This document shows, piece by piece, positions 52,277 through 59,338 of a stretch of 64,000 nt of DNA; the first letter of the stretch is position 1, and every line of letters begins with the position of its first letter. Location of the stretch: positions 1 through 64,000 of the forward strand of contig JACPZP010000098.1 in the NCBI GenBank assembly GCA_016195405.1, written 5' to 3'. This stretch comes from Planctomycetota bacterium. Its GTDB lineage: Bacteria; Planctomycetota; Planctomycetia; Gemmatales; Gemmataceae. A program made the translations under genes and the position numbers. Under the pieces are notes generated by a model. It did no database searches, was not told the origin of the DNA, and saw nothing but the letters and a program-made list of their open reading frames with translations.

Positions 52277-52334
52277 GTTTAGCGGGGAGCCGCAGGCGAC
52301 CGGCGGGACGGTCGCCTGCGGCTCCCCGCTAAAC
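52277..52334. repeat. Perfect GTTTAGC-tipped palindrome
   Basis: Perfect 25-bp arms (52277-52301, 52310-52334; beginning GTTTAGCGGGGAGCCGCAGG) flank an 8-bp loop between uvrB and the glycosyltransferase gene. The same element with two mismatches is at 63560-63620. Confidence 0.95.
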
Positions 52335-52337
52335 ACC

Positions 52338-54347
52338 TTATCGCCTCCTACGCCGGTTCTTCTTCACCTGGGGCGCCGGGGTCGGCTGGCCTTTGAGCTG
52401 CGCGATCTTGTCGCGCAATTGGGCGGCCCGCTCGAATTCCAGGTTCGCCGCCGCCCCGAGCATCTCGCCGTGCAGCTCTTCCAGGTACTCCTCGGTGACA
52501 TAATCCTGCTTTTGCCCGGCAACTTCCGCCACCATCTTGCGTGCGTTGATTTCTTCTTCGATTCCCATGTTGATCGCCGAGCGCACGCCCTCCGGCGTGA
52601 TGCCGTGTTTCGCGTTGTACTCCATTTGCAATACGCGGCGGCGCTCCGTCTCCTCGATCGCCCGCTGCATCGAATCGGTCGTCTTGTCGGCGTACAGGAT
52701 CACCTGGGCGTTGATGTGCCGGGCCGCCCGGCCGATCGTCTGAATCAGCGACGTGCCGCTCCGCAGGAAACCCTCCTTGTCCGCGTCGAGGACGGCCACC
52801 ATCGACACCTCGGGCAAGTCGAGTCCCTCGCGCAGCAGGTTGACGCCTACCAGCGTGTCGAAGCCCCCTTCACGCAACTCACGCAAGACTTGCACGCGCT
52901 CGATTGCATCCAACTCGGAGTGCAGCCATTTGCAGCGCAGGCCCGCCTCGCGCAGATAGTTGGTCAGATCCTCGGCCAGTCGCTTGGTCAGAGTCGTCAC
53001 CAACACGCGTTCATTCTTCGCCGCTCGCTTCCTAATCTCTTCGATAAGATCGGGCACCTGGCCGCGCGCCGGCTTGACGTGCAGCACCGGATCGACCAAC
53101 CCCGTGGGTCGAATCACCTGCTCGACCACTTCGCCGCCGGTCGTTTCCAGTTCGTAAGGCCCTGGCGTCGCCGACATGAAAAGCGCCTGATTGAGCCGCT
53201 TTTCCCATTCATCGAAGCGCAGCGGCCGATTGTCGAGCGCGCTGGGCAAGCGGAAGCCATGCTCGACCAGCGTCGCCTTGCGGCTATGGTCGCCGGCGAA
53301 CATGCCGCGCACCTGCGGCAAGGTGACGTGCGACTCATCGACGATCATCAGCATGTCTTTGGGGAAGAAGTCGAACAGTGTGTAGGGCGGCTCGCCGGGC
53401 GCCCGGCCGCTGAACCAGCGCGCGTAGTTCTCGATCCCGGGACAATGGCCGACTTCGAGCAACATTTCCATGTCGAAGCGGGTGCGGGCGCTTAAACGTT
53501 GCGCTTCGAGCAACTTGCCTTCGCGGCGAAATTGCTCCAACCGCTCCTCCAACTCCTTGCCGATGCCATCGACGGCCGCCCGGATGCGCTCTTCCGGGGT
53601 GACGAAGTGCCTGGCGGGGTAGACGTAGATCTCATCCAGCACCCGCAAGGTCTCGCCGCTGGTGGGATTGATGATCGCGAGGGCATCCACTTCGTCGCCG
53701 AAGAGTTCCAGCCGCAGTGCGAACTCCTCGTATGCGGGCCAGACTTCGACCACGTCGCCGCGGACGCGGAATCGGCCGCGCTCGAAGGCGGTGTCGTTGC
53801 GTTCGTACTGGATGTCGACGAGCTTGAGGAGCAAGTCGTCGCGCTGAATCATGTCGCCCTTCTTGACGTAGATCATCATCCGCTTGTAGTCGGCCGGCGA
53901 ACCCAAGCCGTAGATGCACGAGACGCTGGCGACGATGATCACGTCGTCGCGGCTCATCAGCGCGCTGGTCGCGGCCAGACGCAGACGGTCGATGTTCTCG
54001 TTGACCATCGCGTCCTTCTCGATATAGATGTCTCGCTGCGGGATGTAGGCTTCGGGTTGGAAGTAGTCGTAGTAGCTGATGAAGTAGTGAACCGCGTTCT
54101 TGGGAAAAAAGCCGCGAAATTCCTTGTAAAGCTGGGCGGCCAGGGTCTTGTTGTGCGAAAGGACGAGCGTCGGCTTCTGCAGGCGGGCGATGACATGGGC
54201 GGCCGTGTAAGTCTTGCCGCTGCCGGTGACGCCCATCAGCACCTGGCGGTTCTGCCCATTCGCAAGCCCGGAGACGAGCTTCTCGATAGCCTGTGGCTGA
54301 TCGCCGGCAGGCTGGAAGGGGCTGGCGATTTGGAAGTTCGCGGGCAT
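52338..54347 (-). CDS. uvrB: Excinuclease ABC subunit B
   Basis: UvrB is the helicase-like damage-verification subunit of nucleotide excision repair. The 669-residue protein has Walker A ([13 protein letters not shown]), the beta-hairpin region [15 protein letters not shown], the DESH box ([15 protein letters not shown]), helicase motif VI ([13 protein letters not shown]) and a C-terminal UVR domain ([20 protein letters not shown]). A basic tail (KKNRRRRR) ends it. The ATG directly abuts the stop of the upstream paralogue A, so the two are translationally linked. Fragments of its first codons recur behind two other paralogues of the upstream array. Confidence 0.97.
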
Positions 54348-54767
54348 TCAGTCCATTTCCTTGACTTTGCGGATATTCTCTAGGCCTAAGCACACGATCA
54401 ATTGCTCAATTGAAAGGCAAACAAAAAGGTCGTCGTATCCGGCGCTTAATTCGAGAAGCACGGGTAACGCGCTAGCGTCTGGGTTCAAAAGGGGTGGCTC
54501 CAATGGTTGCTTGACAAGAAATGGGAACTTACTCTCCAGCCACGTTGGAGATTTGTGCCATGACATGCTTCCGACCGGGCCCCAATGCGATATCGCTTCG
54601 GACCACTGCCACCTCTGTAGCTCCGTCTTCCAATACGAAGTAGGCCGTCCCTGGTAAAACGCCTCGCCGCGCAGCCAGCCCCAGACGACGCGTGTGGGTT
54701 CGAGCCAGATTCCGAGCGTCACCGCGGTAAGCAACAGCAGTAGGGCGAGCAGATGCTTTCGTCTCAA
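54348..54767 (-). CDS. Array paralogue A (Q-type), membrane-anchored, HEAT-like tail
   Basis: This is the last of five tandem paralogues and abuts uvrB without a gap. By homology with C and E the start is the TTG at 54767 (LRRKHLLALLLLLTAVTLG), preceded by AGGAGGT; an ATG at 54797 in the leader is the alternative. The 139 residues comprise a membrane helix, the family motif LEPTRVVWGWLRGEAFYQGR with PTSYW, a variable middle (WLESKFPFL) and a degenerate HEAT-like tail (LPVLLELSAGYDDLF). The function is unknown. Confidence 0.75.
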   Translation of the reverse strand: MRRKHLLALLLLLTAVTLGIWLEPTRVVWGWLRGEAFYQGRPTSYWKTELQRWQWSEAISHWGPVGSMSWHKSPTWLESKFPFLVKQPLEPPLLNPDASALPVLLELSAGYDDLFVCLSIEQLIVCLGLENIRKVKEMD

Positions 54768-54795
54768 GACAGACGCCCACCTCCTGAAACGAAAC

Positions 54796-54818
54796 ATTCG
54801 TTTCTGAAACGAATTATA
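54796..54818 (-). promoter_or_regulatory. Palindrome and -10-like box upstream of paralogue A
   Basis: On the minus strand a TATAAT box (54813-54818) runs directly into a perfect 19-bp palindrome, ATTCGTTTCAGAAACGAAT (54796-54814). The same layout with TATGAT and a shorter palindrome precedes paralogue C. No convincing -35 box was found. An operator is an inference. Confidence 0.45.
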
Positions 54819-54866
54819 GCAGGGCGGGAGGGAATCGCGTGTTCTGTCGCGCTGTGAATTGAGGTG

Positions 54867-54939
54867 CGAGCTTATCGATAGCCCGTGGCTGATCGCCGGC
54901 GGGCTGCCACGGGCTCGCGATTTGGAAGTTAGCGGGCAT
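54867..54939 (-). pseudogene. uvrB 5' fragment behind paralogue B
   Basis: These 73 bp match the first 73 bp of uvrB with eight differences. The frame reads [20 protein letters not shown] and remains open for 43 codons before a stop. It starts 2 bp after the stop of paralogue B, mirroring the A-uvrB junction, and marks a duplication boundary. Confidence 0.88.
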
Positions 54940-54941
54940 GA

Positions 54942-55373
54942 TTATTGTGGCATCCACCGCAGTTGATTAAGTGCGTGCCGCGCGCACCGCCGTACGCGTT
55001 CCGAGGGGTCGCGAGTAAGTTCGAGTAAAACATCCTTTGCTGACAAGTTGAACGAGGGCAAGTCTGGCTCAGGAAAGAGGGACGGGAACCATCTCTCTAA
55101 CGGGCCGCGGTAGAACAGATACCCGCCACCATCTCCAGAAGGAAGCTCATTTTCTTCTTCCGGAGCTACTTCGAATTTATCCAGCAAGGCGCTCCAATAT
55201 GAAGTCGGCCGTCCCTTGTAAAACGCCTCACCGCGCAGCCAGCCCCAGACGACGCGCGTCGGATCGAGCCAGATGCCAAGCGTCACCAACGCCGCGAGCG
55301 ACAAAACCGTGAGAGCCAATTTTTTCCGGAAAACGCGGCGAACCGTGTCATACTTTGCGCGCAATCTATTCAT
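54942..55373 (-). CDS. Array paralogue B (K-type), membrane-anchored, HEAT-like tail
   Basis: From ATG 55373 (MNRLRAKYDTVRRVF), overlapping the end of paralogue C by 8 bp, the protein has 143 residues; an ATG at 55406 would lengthen it. It shows a membrane helix (LALTVLSLAALVTLG), the motif LDPTRVVWGWLRGEAFYKGR with PTSYW, the middle LERWFPSLFPEP and a clear HEAT-like tail (LLELTRDPSERVRRCARHAL). The DPT and YKG variants are shared only with D. Function is unknown. Confidence 0.75.
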   Translation of the reverse strand: MNRLRAKYDTVRRVFRKKLALTVLSLAALVTLGIWLDPTRVVWGWLRGEAFYKGRPTSYWSALLDKFEVAPEEENELPSGDGGGYLFYRGPLERWFPSLFPEPDLPSFNLSAKDVLLELTRDPSERVRRCARHALNQLRWMPQ

Positions 55374-55800
55374 GTCCTTGAGCTTCGCGGATTTTTTGTA
55401 AGCCATGCTTGGCAATCGTTCCGATCTCAAGATCCGAATCTTTTGTCAACTCAATCAAAACCCCGCGTGCGCCAACGTCCCCACTCAGCACGGCTGGCAG
55501 GCCGTCCTGCCCCTCGAACCTAAAAAATGCAGGGAACCAGCTTTCCAGAAGGCCTGGATCGCGCTTCAAGACCGAAACCTCCACATAAAAAGCGCATTTT
55601 CCATCCGGTGCAATCTGCAGACGTGGTTCAAGTCTCCATTTCCAACAGGATAGTTCTTTCTTCCACCACGACGTCGGCCGTCCCTGGTAAAACGCTTCGC
55701 CGCGCAGCCAGCCCCAGACGACGCGGGTGGGTTCGAGCCAGATGCCAAACGCGACCGCGACGAGCACCAGCAAAAACACGACAAAGCGCTTTCGCTTCAA
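55366..55800 (-). CDS. Array paralogue C (Q-type), membrane-anchored, HEAT-like tail
   Basis: The start is a TTG at 55800 with AGGAGGT upstream; the same leader and start occur in E. The 144 residues include a membrane helix (FVVFLLVLVAVAFG), LEPTRVVWGWLRGEAFYQGR with PTSWW, the middle LLESWFPAFF and a HEAT-like tail (VLIELTKDSDLEIGTIAKHG). Its first 100 bases are almost identical to those of E. Function is unknown. Confidence 0.75.
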   Translation of the reverse strand: MKRKRFVVFLLVLVAVAFGIWLEPTRVVWGWLRGEAFYQGRPTSWWKKELSCWKWRLEPRLQIAPDGKCAFYVEVSVLKRDPGLLESWFPAFFRFEGQDGLPAVLSGDVGARGVLIELTKDSDLEIGTIAKHGLQKIREAQGHE

Positions 55801-55831
55801 GAAAATCGGGCACCTCCTGAAACGAATCCTC

Positions 55832-55851
55832 CGTTTCTGAAACGAATCATA
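55832..55851 (-). promoter_or_regulatory. Palindrome and -10-like box upstream of paralogue C
   Basis: TATGAT (55846-55851 on the minus strand) is followed by CGTTTCAGAAACG (55832-55844), the counterpart of the site before paralogue A. The paralogue E leader keeps only the downstream CGTTTCAGGAGGTG part. Confidence 0.4.
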
Positions 55852-55899
55852 GCAATGCGAGAGCGAATCGCATGTTCTGTCTCAATGTGAATTGGGATG

Positions 55900-55930
55900 C
55901 GAGCTTATCGATAGCCTGCGGCTGATCGCC
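55900..55930 (-). pseudogene. Short uvrB 5' fragment behind paralogue D
   Basis: These 31 bp (GGCGATCAGCCGCAGGCTAT onward) correspond to uvrB codons 15-24. They start 3 bp after the stop of paralogue D; the first 14 codons of the fragment were lost. The following spacer is similar to that behind the other fragment. Confidence 0.8.
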
Positions 55931-55933
55931 GCT

Positions 55934-56416
55934 TCATTTCGGTTTTTCCCGATCGGGCTGTGGCAAATGAGGTTGCCCGGCGTCGAGCACGTCCACCAGG
56001 TCTTCAACGGTTAATTGGGAGCGCCGCCCCCACAGTCCTTCCGCGGAAATATCTCGAACATTCTTTTCGGGGGCGGTGAGAAGCTTCCTCAGCATGGGAT
56101 TCGCATCCTCGGCCCACTCATATCGCTCATTGATCGAATAGGTAAGCGTTTTTTTCGGATCCGTCTTGAATACGAGTGTCTCAAGCCAAGTCGGCTTCCG
56201 CAGCCAAGCTTTGATCGGGTGATTTGGGGCAATAAAGTCACCGGTGTCCACGGATTCCCACCGGCTGAGTTCCAGTCGCCACCACGACGTCGGCCGTCCC
56301 TTGTAGAACGCCTCGCCGCGCAGCCAACCCCAGACGACGCGCGTGGGGTCGAGCCAAATTCCGAAGGCGACCGCGGCCATCAGCAGCAAGCAGGTAACTA
56401 TGTATTTGCGCTTCAC
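55934..56416 (-). CDS. Array paralogue D (K-type), membrane-anchored, HEAT-like tail
   Basis: A GTG at 56416, sharing one base with the stop of paralogue E, starts 160 residues; a longer upstream frame lies inside E and is rejected. It has a membrane helix (YIVTCLLLMAAVAFG), LDPTRVVWGWLRGEAFYKGR with PTSWW, the middle KPTWLETLVF and a tail with HEAT-like features (MLRKLLTAPEKNVRDISAEG). It forms a translationally coupled pair with E, as B does with C. Function is unknown. Confidence 0.72.
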   Translation of the reverse strand: MKRKYIVTCLLLMAAVAFGIWLDPTRVVWGWLRGEAFYKGRPTSWWRLELSRWESVDTGDFIAPNHPIKAWLRKPTWLETLVFKTDPKKTLTYSINERYEWAEDANPMLRKLLTAPEKNVRDISAEGLWGRRSQLTVEDLVDVLDAGQPHLPQPDREKPK

Positions 56417-56865
56417 TAACGCGCACCCCCGTTGATCAACCTTTCCAACGATTGCTTCTCGCCCAGTTCTTCGAGACCTTCCGCTGCAACCAATTGCACC
56501 ATTGGCTCGGAATCTTCCAGAAGTTCCTTCAGGACGTCGCGCGCCTCTGGCGTCCATCGGAACAAAGCGGGCCGAGGTCCGCACTGCCTTATGTCCAGAG
56601 TGGGGTGCAGACGCGACGGAAGAAGTCGATACCAGGGCTTCGGTGCCCAGTTCCAACCGCCATCACGGACAAGTACAAGAATACTCCCTCCCACTGAATG
56701 TCGTTCCCATTTTCGCAGCTCTGAACTCCACCACGAAGTCGGCCGTCCCTGGTAAAACGCTTCGCCGCGCAGCCAGCCCCAGGCGACGCGGGTCGGTTCG
56801 AGCCAGATGCCAAACGCGACCACGACGAGCACCAGCAAAAACACGACAAAGCGCTTTCGCTTCAA
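56416..56865 (-). CDS. Array paralogue E (Q-type), membrane-anchored, HEAT-like tail
   Basis: This is the first gene of the array. A TTG start at 56865 follows AGGAGGTGTCC. The 149 residues contain a membrane helix (FVVFLLVLVVVAFG), LEPTRVAWGWLRGEAFYQGR with PTSWW, the middle PKPWYRLLPSRL and a HEAT-like tail (VLKELLEDSEPMVQLVAAEG). The leader lacks the upstream palindrome seen in A and C, so its promoter may be that of the preceding gene. Function is unknown. Confidence 0.75.
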   Translation of the reverse strand: MKRKRFVVFLLVLVVVAFGIWLEPTRVAWGWLRGEAFYQGRPTSWWSSELRKWERHSVGGSILVLVRDGGWNWAPKPWYRLLPSRLHPTLDIRQCGPRPALFRWTPEARDVLKELLEDSEPMVQLVAAEGLEELGEKQSLERLINGGAR

Positions 56866-56898
56866 GAAAATCGGACACCTCCTGAAACGTGTCTTCCG

Positions 56899-58815
56899 TC
56901 ACTTCTCCACCTTCACGATCGCCCCGCAATCGCAGAAGATGAAACTGCCGTCACGGCTGATCTCCATGGAACGCACGGGAGCGCAGACGTAGCAAGTCCC
57001 GCACGTGTACGCTCGGAAAACGAATGGTCGTTCACTTATACTTAGTGCTGAAATCTCGGTCTGTCTCGTCTTCTCGAGTGCCAAAGACGTGACGGCAAAC
57101 ATGTGTCCTTGATCCGCAGAAAGTACGAAGGCGCCGAATGTATTCGAACTCCACCGCGGCGTGCCGGCCGTCGCGTTGGGATCGGCAGGAACTCGGCCCA
57201 AGTCAACGACGAAGAGGACAGGGTCTAAGTAGGAGGCTCTTAGGAAAACCTGACCTTTATCGGTCGCTTGAATTCCGCTAATGCCTTGGATGGGTGTCCT
57301 GACGGTCTTGGTTATCTGAAGCGGGTTCGTGTCAATTTGTTGCAACTCGCGGTAATCAGCGGTAAACAAAAACTTGCCGTCGGACGTTAAGCACATGCAA
57401 CTCGTGTCGGGATTGAGTTCCGCGACTTCGCCCGCTGGCTTTAACTGTGCAAGGTCAATGCGGCCCACTTTCCGATTCGTGCCGTCGAGGTAATAGAGCC
57501 AAGCATCATCGGGAGCGATCAACAGCTGGCGAACGAATGTGTCGACTGAAAAGACGAACTGCGGCTTAAGTGTGCCCTTGGGCGGGAGGTCCTTCGTATC
57601 ATAAACCAAAATGTCGGCAGGTCCGGCTTGACCTTCAGGCGACGCTGTTTTTTTTCCGGTGGCGCGCTTTGACGTCCCTTCCCTTCTAGTAGCGGCGTAC
57701 AACTTTCCTCGGCGATCCATTGCCATCATATGGCACGGCTTGTGCAAATCGTAAATGCCTTTGAGGTCGAGATCTGGCAATGAATAACAAAGCAGCTTTC
57801 CCTCAGAAGTCGTCACCCACGCAGAGGTGGAGTCAGGTGCAATGGCTGCTGCAATGTAAGGCTCAATAGACTTGACCGGCATCAATTTTATCTGGGCCGC
57901 TGGTTTGGTAATCGGACCCCACTCAAAGCCGTATGCGTCGTCGTCTTCCGCTGCTTCAGCAATCGCAAAGGAAACTTCCGGAAGATTCGGGGCAGCCGTT
58001 ACTACGATGCGGTAGGTATCGTCTGTAGGTGCGTACATGTACCAGTCGAGACCGCCTTGTCGTAAAATAGGTCGCAAATTGACAACTCCCCCATTGAGAA
58101 CACTAGCCCTGACAGTAGTTGGAATAGTTCCTTTCGACTCCTCTTTCTTGGTCCTAGCTTGAATCCGGTAAAGTCGCTGTCCTCCCAGGCTCACCAGGAA
58201 GAGCTTAGCGAGCCTTCCCCTGCTTGGGTCCACGGGATCTTTGCCGGTGAAGGTGAGGCGCGCTTCGAAAAAGCCGTTTTCCAAACTGATCTTTTGGGCC
58301 GACGAATCTCCGAACGGCACCGGCTGGACCGAAGGCTCCAGCGGCTTCACGATAGGAGGTAGTCCCATCCAATCGTTGCCAAGCGAAATGAGAATTACTG
58401 CTGCCAGCGTGGCCGTCACGAGGGCAGTGCTGCCGCCGATTCCAAGAATCCAAGGCAAGGCGCCGGCCGTTCGCCGCGCCGGGTCGCTACGGCCTGGCAC
58501 GCCATCGCTGGTAGCGGGCGCGGCCAAACAGACAAGAACCGCAAGGGTCAAACTGATCGCGCAAATCCCTATTTCAAGCAATGCGCCCAAACGCGCCACA
58601 TCGTCTTGTTGAACGCGCTGGCCTCGCGCGGCGATAATAAGGCCTATTCCGAAGCCCGCAAGGAGTGTGAGCGGCAGCGGTAGCAACAGGAAAAAACCTG
58701 CAATGCGCGCAGGTGCTCCCGTCACTGTCCTTTTGCCTGAGACCTTGAACTCGCCGATTGACAGTGCAAAGGTCCCGAAAACTAGCAGCACGACCTCAAT
58801 CACGAGAAGCCACAT
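56899..58815 (-). CDS. Membrane protein with beta-propeller-like outer domain and Cys-rich tail
   Basis: ATG 58815 with AGGAG seven bases upstream is preferred over a TTG at 58854, giving 638 residues. Four membrane helices (about 1-20, 36-58, 76-100, 122-145) precede a long extracytoplasmic region. This region contains short repeats resembling blades of a WD40/YncE-type propeller (AAAIAPDSTSAWVTTSEGKL, MCLTSDGKFLFTADYREL, MEISRDGSFIFCDCGA). The end carries five closely spaced cysteines (CGTCYVC, CDC), a possible metal site. It lies 33 bp upstream of array gene E on the same strand. No function was recognised. Confidence 0.72.
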   Translation of the reverse strand: MWLLVIEVVLLVFGTFALSIGEFKVSGKRTVTGAPARIAGFFLLLPLPLTLLAGFGIGLIIAARGQRVQQDDVARLGALLEIGICAISLTLAVLVCLAAPATSDGVPGRSDPARRTAGALPWILGIGGSTALVTATLAAVILISLGNDWMGLPPIVKPLEPSVQPVPFGDSSAQKISLENGFFEARLTFTGKDPVDPSRGRLAKLFLVSLGGQRLYRIQARTKKEESKGTIPTTVRASVLNGGVVNLRPILRQGGLDWYMYAPTDDTYRIVVTAAPNLPEVSFAIAEAAEDDDAYGFEWGPITKPAAQIKLMPVKSIEPYIAAAIAPDSTSAWVTTSEGKLLCYSLPDLDLKGIYDLHKPCHMMAMDRRGKLYAATRREGTSKRATGKKTASPEGQAGPADILVYDTKDLPPKGTLKPQFVFSVDTFVRQLLIAPDDAWLYYLDGTNRKVGRIDLAQLKPAGEVAELNPDTSCMCLTSDGKFLFTADYRELQQIDTNPLQITKTVRTPIQGISGIQATDKGQVFLRASYLDPVLFVVDLGRVPADPNATAGTPRWSSNTFGAFVLSADQGHMFAVTSLALEKTRQTEISALSISERPFVFRAYTCGTCYVCAPVRSMEISRDGSFIFCDCGAIVKVEK

Positions 58816-59338
58816 TCGAGCTCCTAAAAATGCAAACTGCCAGGATGGATGCAACGCGGGCGAGTCCGGCGCAAGCTCACTTCTCTACCTTCACGATCGA
58901 GGGCCATTATTGCTTCGCTTCCGGGCGCATGCAACAAATTTCAAAGTCACGAAGCTTGGATGAAATCACTGAGACGCTGGGGACGCTCCCAGATTGTGGA
59001 CTTCGGCCGAACGGCCCTGGACTGCGTTCTAGGGGGGGTGCGCGCGCGTGCGCGCGCAATGCAATCGAAACTTTGGCACGCGGCAGGCGGTTAAACGAAT
59101 TAAGTCCTTTACACGAATATGGTTATCGTGAATGCCTCCGTTTTTCGTTTACGAAGGTGTGTGCGGGAGCGTGCCGTTAAACGCATTCGCGCATGTCATT
59201 TACCTATCTGGTTTTGCGACTCGAAATTGCGTTTATTGACTGCTAGACGAATCTACTCTTGAGAAACCAAGGTTGCTTTGGCAGCCCCTTCCCGACAGGA
59301 TATAATGGCTCCCATCCCCTTTACCGGAGAATGCGGCC
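58816..59338. other. 523-bp intergenic region with a gene-end remnant
   Basis: Positions 58877-58899 repeat the 3' end of the preceding gene (56899-56921) with one mismatch, reading IVKVEK and stop on the minus strand. Around 59033-59066 there is a run of G and an alternating GC/GT stretch (GTGCGCGCGCGTGCGCGCGC) of the kind that can adopt Z-DNA. The ppk promoter should lie here but no clear boxes were seen. Confidence 0.55.

Follow-up and report, generated by a model that had tools for sequence, protein, structure and literature searches.

A tandem array of five membrane-protein genes abutting uvrB in a Gemmataceae genome, with signs of duplication, gene loss and front-end exchange

Introduction

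In homogeneous polyimmunity loci the hallmark is a tandem series of distantly related paralogues that no toxin genes interrupt (Zhang et al. 2012, PMC3482391), and HEAT repeats occur among immunity proteins, including those of planctomycetes (PMC3482391). Planctomycetes are also rich in alpha-solenoid proteins (PMC3837014), and duplication followed by divergence is a major source of new proteins in the Gemmataceae (PMC8567305). Here we describe an array of five related genes in the window, a 64,000-nucleotide stretch of an 80.6 kb contig (C158) that belongs to a draft genome of 6.86 Mb in 214 contigs; of the named relatives found, a MAG from the Gemmataceae is the closest.

Organization of the array

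The five genes, A to E, have the minus-strand order X (651 aa)-E-D-[uvrB′ 32 bp]-spacer-C-B-[uvrB′ 73 bp]-spacer-A-uvrB (Table 1), and are the sole copies of the family in their own genome at E≤0.01. An earlier reading made from the sequence alone had proposed five adjacent paralogues upstream of uvrB, with copies of the uvrB start behind B and D. Self-BLASTN recovered the paralogues, with off-diagonal matches to the uvrB start at both places; the copy behind B is as described, and that behind D is present but is 32 bp rather than 31 bp long. The 73-bp fragment starts at the uvrB ATG, 2 bp past the B stop. The E stop and the D start overlap by 1 nt, the ATG of B overlaps the end of C, and the stop of A (TGA) abuts the uvrB ATG. 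Gene A may start at its TTG instead of its ATG codon.

The array together with the 651-aa gene (54348-58854) has a GC3 of 0.59-0.67 (array alone 0.60-0.67), whereas the flanking genes uvrB and ppk have 0.82-0.84. Sigma-70-type promoters and terminators did not exceed those in shuffled sequence, and an Rfam search of 50-62 kb gave zero matches. Between uvrB and the glycosyltransferase gene there is a perfect 26-bp inverted repeat with a 6-nt loop (52277-52334), probably a terminator-like or dispersed element. Just upstream of the 651-aa gene is a 23-bp copy (58877-58899, 96% identity) of that gene's own 3′ end including its stop codon (56899-56921), perhaps a remnant of an earlier duplication.

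Table 1. Coordinates of the array genes, uvrB fragments and repeat copies in the window
Feature	Coordinates	Strand	Remarks
uvrB, 669 aa, source of the fragments	52338..54347	-	Pfam UvrB domains
Gene A, 139-149 aa	54348..54797	-	start TTG 54767 or ATG 54797
Repeat copy upstream of A	54757..54819	-	independent HMM, E=5.2e-13
73-bp copy of uvrB 5′ end behind B	54867..54939	-	BLASTN vs 54275-54347, 89%, E=2.6e-20
Gene B, 143 aa, ATG start	54942..55373	-	
Gene C, 144 aa, TTG start	55366..55800	-	first 140 nt 96% identical to E
Repeat copy upstream of C	55796..55850	-	HMM E=5.7e-8; covariance model
32-bp fragment of uvrB 5′ region behind D	55900..55931	-	BLASTN vs 54275-54306, 94%, E=1.6e-7
Gene D, 160 aa, GTG start	55934..56416	-	
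Gene E, 149 aa, TTG start; membrane helix, constant core, HEAT-like tail	56416..56865	-	
Repeat 3′ half upstream of E	56861..56890	-	HMM weak, E=0.03

The encoded proteins

All five proteins contain a hydrophobic helix and the block PTRVxWGWLRGEAFYxGRPTSxW, and 33 of about 140 aligned columns are invariant. Each begins with a KR-rich segment followed by the single hydrophobic helix, a juxtamembrane core (W-L-[ED]-PTRVVWGWLRGEAFYxGRPTS-x-W), a middle that is predicted with low confidence (residues 61-90) and a C-terminal helix pair, which an AlphaFold model with a mean pLDDT of 76 places at residues 106-115 and 121-144. A shared membrane helix and block had been noted before and are present throughout. 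The HEAT-like tail that was also claimed is weak in single sequences, where only E reaches E=7e-5 (HEAT_2) and this best member falls below the gathering cut-off of PF13646 (23.4 versus 27.7 bits), but a profile built from 11 members of the family finds HEAT-type designs over positions 106-137 (E=1e-8). An antiparallel helix pair is thus found by profile and by model. Several repeats forming a solenoid are not, as AlphaFold predicts one pair only, and a Foldseek search of the PDB returned only short HEAT/ARM pairs that were not significant (E≥1).

The family had been put forward as unrecognized, and we agree: none of the five proteins has a match above cut-off in Pfam, NCBIfam or PADLOC, no library searched describes the family, and the literature searched makes no mention of it. 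A to E are most likely proteins of the inner membrane that combine a constant anchor with a hypervariable middle and a single HEAT-like unit. By the positive-inside rule the positively charged N-terminus would lie inside, and the C-terminal part would face the periplasm. We infer that they are membrane-anchored binding proteins whose specificity lies in the variable part.

A dispersed repeat in the spacers

Searching with the spacer upstream of A gave matches to many other sites in the same genome, which are copies of a repeat of about 66 bp (consensus GCAGGATTCGTTTCATGAACGAAACATTCGTTTCAGGACCTGCCTGTGTGTCCTGAATAAATGAAT) with two hairpins, one of them conserved and the second seen in the consensus fold. 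An HMM trained on 30 copies from other parts of the genome, with the array copies left out, finds the copies upstream of A and C and, weakly, a 3′ half upstream of E. This half-repeat meets the end of the 651-aa gene, and over 34 bp it matches the C copy at 88% identity. As a second reading we considered insertion of the 651-aa gene into the E spacer and rejected it, since the region upstream of that gene has nothing above shuffles in common with the A and C spacers.

At E≤1e-4 there are at least 53 copies in this genome, a lower bound because not all candidates were scored (55 matches in total at this threshold, one of them in a relative); among 36 relatives there is a single marginal match, and the other 35 have none. 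The repeat is new and specific to this genome, and with many intergenic copies containing palindromes it has the character of a REP- or MITE-like element: with a crude gene caller 0 of 30 copies fall within gene calls, and of 29 copies outside the array 23 follow a gene that is encoded on the opposite strand (p=0.002), so that the array copies are in the rarer orientation. The repeat loci inspected (L030-L073) are mostly 5-60 bp behind such genes. In the array, the repeat provides A, C and E with an AGGAGGT sequence and extends into their TTG start regions.

Relationships among the copies

The regions around genes A and C are similar over about 300 bp, comprising the uvrB fragment (94% identity), the spacer (79%), the repeat element (83%), the helix region (62%) and the core (93%); the similarity proposed for the spacers behind the fragments accordingly holds, at 79-83% between A and C. 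The tails of A and C are 50% identical, and codon shuffling of the E and C tails gives a mean of 48%; the middle of A and C cannot be aligned although the spacer is about 80% identical. At the other end, the sequence made up of the last 50 nt of A and the uvrB start aligns to the C end and B start with a score of 35 (maximum of 500 shuffles, 25). C-B-uvrB′ and A-uvrB are therefore counterpart units, with the K-type gene absent from the last one, and both the proposed amplification in place carrying the uvrB start and the proposed loss of a K-type gene are borne out, the first by the repeated fragments and copies and the second by this alignment, in which the C 3′ end meets B and the A 3′ end meets uvrB.

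The relationship of E to C is of a different kind. The two share 173 bp at 95-96% identity, which falls to chance within about 20 nt (20, 20, 15, 8 and 3 matches in successive 20-nt blocks), such that the front is 96% identical and the tail 49%, versus the codon-shuffle mean of 48%. Synonymous divergence (dS) ranges from 0 to 0.11 across helix and core and exceeds 2 in the tail. Selection alone cannot yield silent sites that are identical up to a given point and random beyond it, and the front ends of E and C have thus been exchanged by recombination, most simply by gene conversion. The divergence of the A and C middles could reflect diversifying selection and indels in place of recombination. 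Between paralogues the core has dN of 0.02-0.08 and dS mostly of 0.2-0.7 (dN/dS roughly 0.05-0.3), a low dN relative to dS that points to purifying selection on the core, and the genes are probably functional.

The alternation of Q-type (E, C, A) and K-type (D, B) genes is literally there, at two residue positions (E/D and Q/K), but does not define two real subtypes. Among 129 aligned nucleotides the informative splits are CE 7, BD 6, AB 6 and AD 4, and the K pairing (BD) is no better backed than the incompatible pairing of A with B. Because of this conflict, and because relatives have D, E, R, Q or K at the Q/K site, we reject the division into two subtypes.

The family in other Gemmataceae

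Members of the family are present in 13 of 95 Gemmataceae genomes (E≤1e-5), most of them adjoining unrelated genes. In viral contigs we found no relatives and in plasmids no match, and carriage by either was rejected on these grounds. The expectation that homologues would show array structure is upheld in part, by a tandem pair in one genome and a collapsed pair in another, and that of two subtypes is not. In G095 there are two coupled tandem copies with a dS of about 0.5 in front and about 1.35 in the rear. G004 has a 33-bp, 97% identical copy of a member's own start that overlaps its stop codon, and this is a collapsed second copy; the same genome contains broken family copies (L007 6007-6130 and L018), of which one ends inside the core at a TAG, consistent with a 3-base deletion, and the other has an in-frame TGA.

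G096 and G013 are close relatives (uvrB dS 0.31, dN 0.01) that have a member at the same site, behind a gene with helix-hairpin-helix-like sequence, and the flanks are 92-98% identical; the two members nonetheless have in common only their first bases and the core of about 45 bp, with different helices and tails. G013 has about 660 bp more beside the family gene, including a DUF433/DUF5615-like pair (L165 5446-5945, identified by eye) that G096 lacks. Together, the cases in G095, G004 and G096/G013 show that it is a habit of the family to turn over in tandem and to change around a constant core. We consider this turnover a more interesting part of the finding than the uvrB fragments.

The sequence-only reading had also raised a tie to DNA repair. 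We surveyed uvrB in 56 further genomes, about 50 of which gave loci with usable upstream sequence, and just one of these, in G097, has a family member nearby (L103/L146). G097 belongs to another genus; the member lies about 160 bp upstream of uvrB, is not coupled to it, and there is no synteny with the window, although such a neighbour is unexpected by chance (p about 0.005, a rough estimate). The window neighbours GT4, X and ppk are absent from the uvrB regions of 16 of 16 relatives, and synteny around uvrB is absent even inside genus g14; the pair of G013 and G096 is the one exception. A conserved tie is not seen in these counts. We take the link between array and uvrB to be positional, a chance capture, and G097 counts against this.

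Discussion

We think it probable that a Gemmataceae gene family has here formed a young and unstable tandem array, shaped by duplication, loss of a K-type gene and front-end exchange, that provides a repertoire of binding variants and has carried uvrB as a passenger. The uvrB fragments have an ordinary cause, having been copied along with the duplicating array. We infer the order of events from this one genome. A run of Q-type gene, K-type gene and uvrB, with starts overlapping or abutting the preceding stops, would have come to lie behind a copy of the genome-specific dispersed repeat, and this copy would have supplied both the Shine-Dalgarno sequence and the start region of the Q gene. Next, uvrB′ would have been joined to the spacer by a tandem duplication, one end of which lay 73 bp inside uvrB, and further unequal exchange would have given a third unit. 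The last unit presumably lost its K gene through a deletion that reached from the K start to the uvrB start and reduced the unit to A-uvrB, and gene conversion would have swapped the front ends (spacer, helix and core), most recently between E and C, while the tails stayed distinct. As to function, the constant part would anchor the protein, and the variable middle and HEAT unit would bind different partners, which would make the array a small set of binding variants.

More tentatively, the array may be one that generates diversity, in which the selected core doubles as a homology arm for front-end exchange and the hypervariable middle provides a lineage-specific, membrane-anchored binding repertoire. 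Somewhat less credit goes to plain in-place amplification of a Q-K-uvrB′ unit followed by divergence only, with the front and tail differences due to selection alone. The unit order, the repeated uvrB′-spacer junction, the homology of the C and A 3′ ends and the missing K gene are all as this predicts, but a plain unit duplication is not a full account of an E/C identity that includes silent sites and then drops to chance, nor of an A/C middle that cannot be aligned, and the Q/K grouping is at odds with the A+B pairing.

That the array is a homogeneous polyimmunity locus, whose membrane-anchored HEAT proteins neutralize toxins from neighbours, we regard as improbable. The layout conforms, with tandem, distantly related paralogues between which only uvrB fragments and no toxin genes intervene; HEAT repeats are on the list of immunity proteins (PMC3482391) and the middle is variable. 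Against this, no known immunity-protein or defence family is matched in Pfam, NCBIfam or PADLOC, and no toxin is recognized nearby, the sole conflict module being the DUF433/DUF5615-like pair seen by eye in G013. We find it distinctly unlikely that the proteins act with UvrB in repair or its regulation, the array being a repair-linked operon: the abutting of A and uvrB and the neighbour in G097 would fit, yet the other loci of the approximately 50 surveyed have no family member, even where the genome has one at another site, uvrB has no conserved neighbours, and most members lie beside unrelated genes. An assembly artefact of a short-read metagenome bin is hardly to be credited, even though repeats are a known cause of misjoins and this is a 214-contig draft, since the longest exact repeat between copies is just 52 bp (C/E), the tails all differ and independent genomes show the same behaviour.

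Within 2.6 kb the array that we favour as a product of duplication, loss and exchange records its own making: the start of a gene was copied, a junction was repeated, a gene was lost, and recombination left a breakpoint. The instability in three other genomes and the differing versions at one locus indicate a rapidly diversifying membrane protein family, and this offers an entry point to what planctomycetes use their many expanded, uncharacterized protein families for.

Compared with described systems, the array resembles homogeneous polyimmunity loci in its uninterrupted tandem paralogues that are only distantly alike and in the presence of HEAT units, and differs in that no toxin partner or known immunity domain was found and in its membrane anchor and constant core. 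With planctomycete HEAT-repeat proteins (PF13646; PMC3837014) the array proteins share a HEAT-like helix pair, and HEAT solenoids in relatives (L010, L014, L015) have a similar membrane helix and a GxPxSxW motif before the long solenoid, whereas the array proteins have one degenerate unit, a hypervariable middle and tandem, coupled copies. The spacer element, like REP- and MITE-like repeats (cf. PMC3733652), is short, hairpin-forming and intergenic, with tens of copies per genome; unlike them, it is about 66 bp with two hairpins, is genome-specific, and in the array forms the leader of protein genes, a small and testable case of a repeat turning into a ribosome-binding region.
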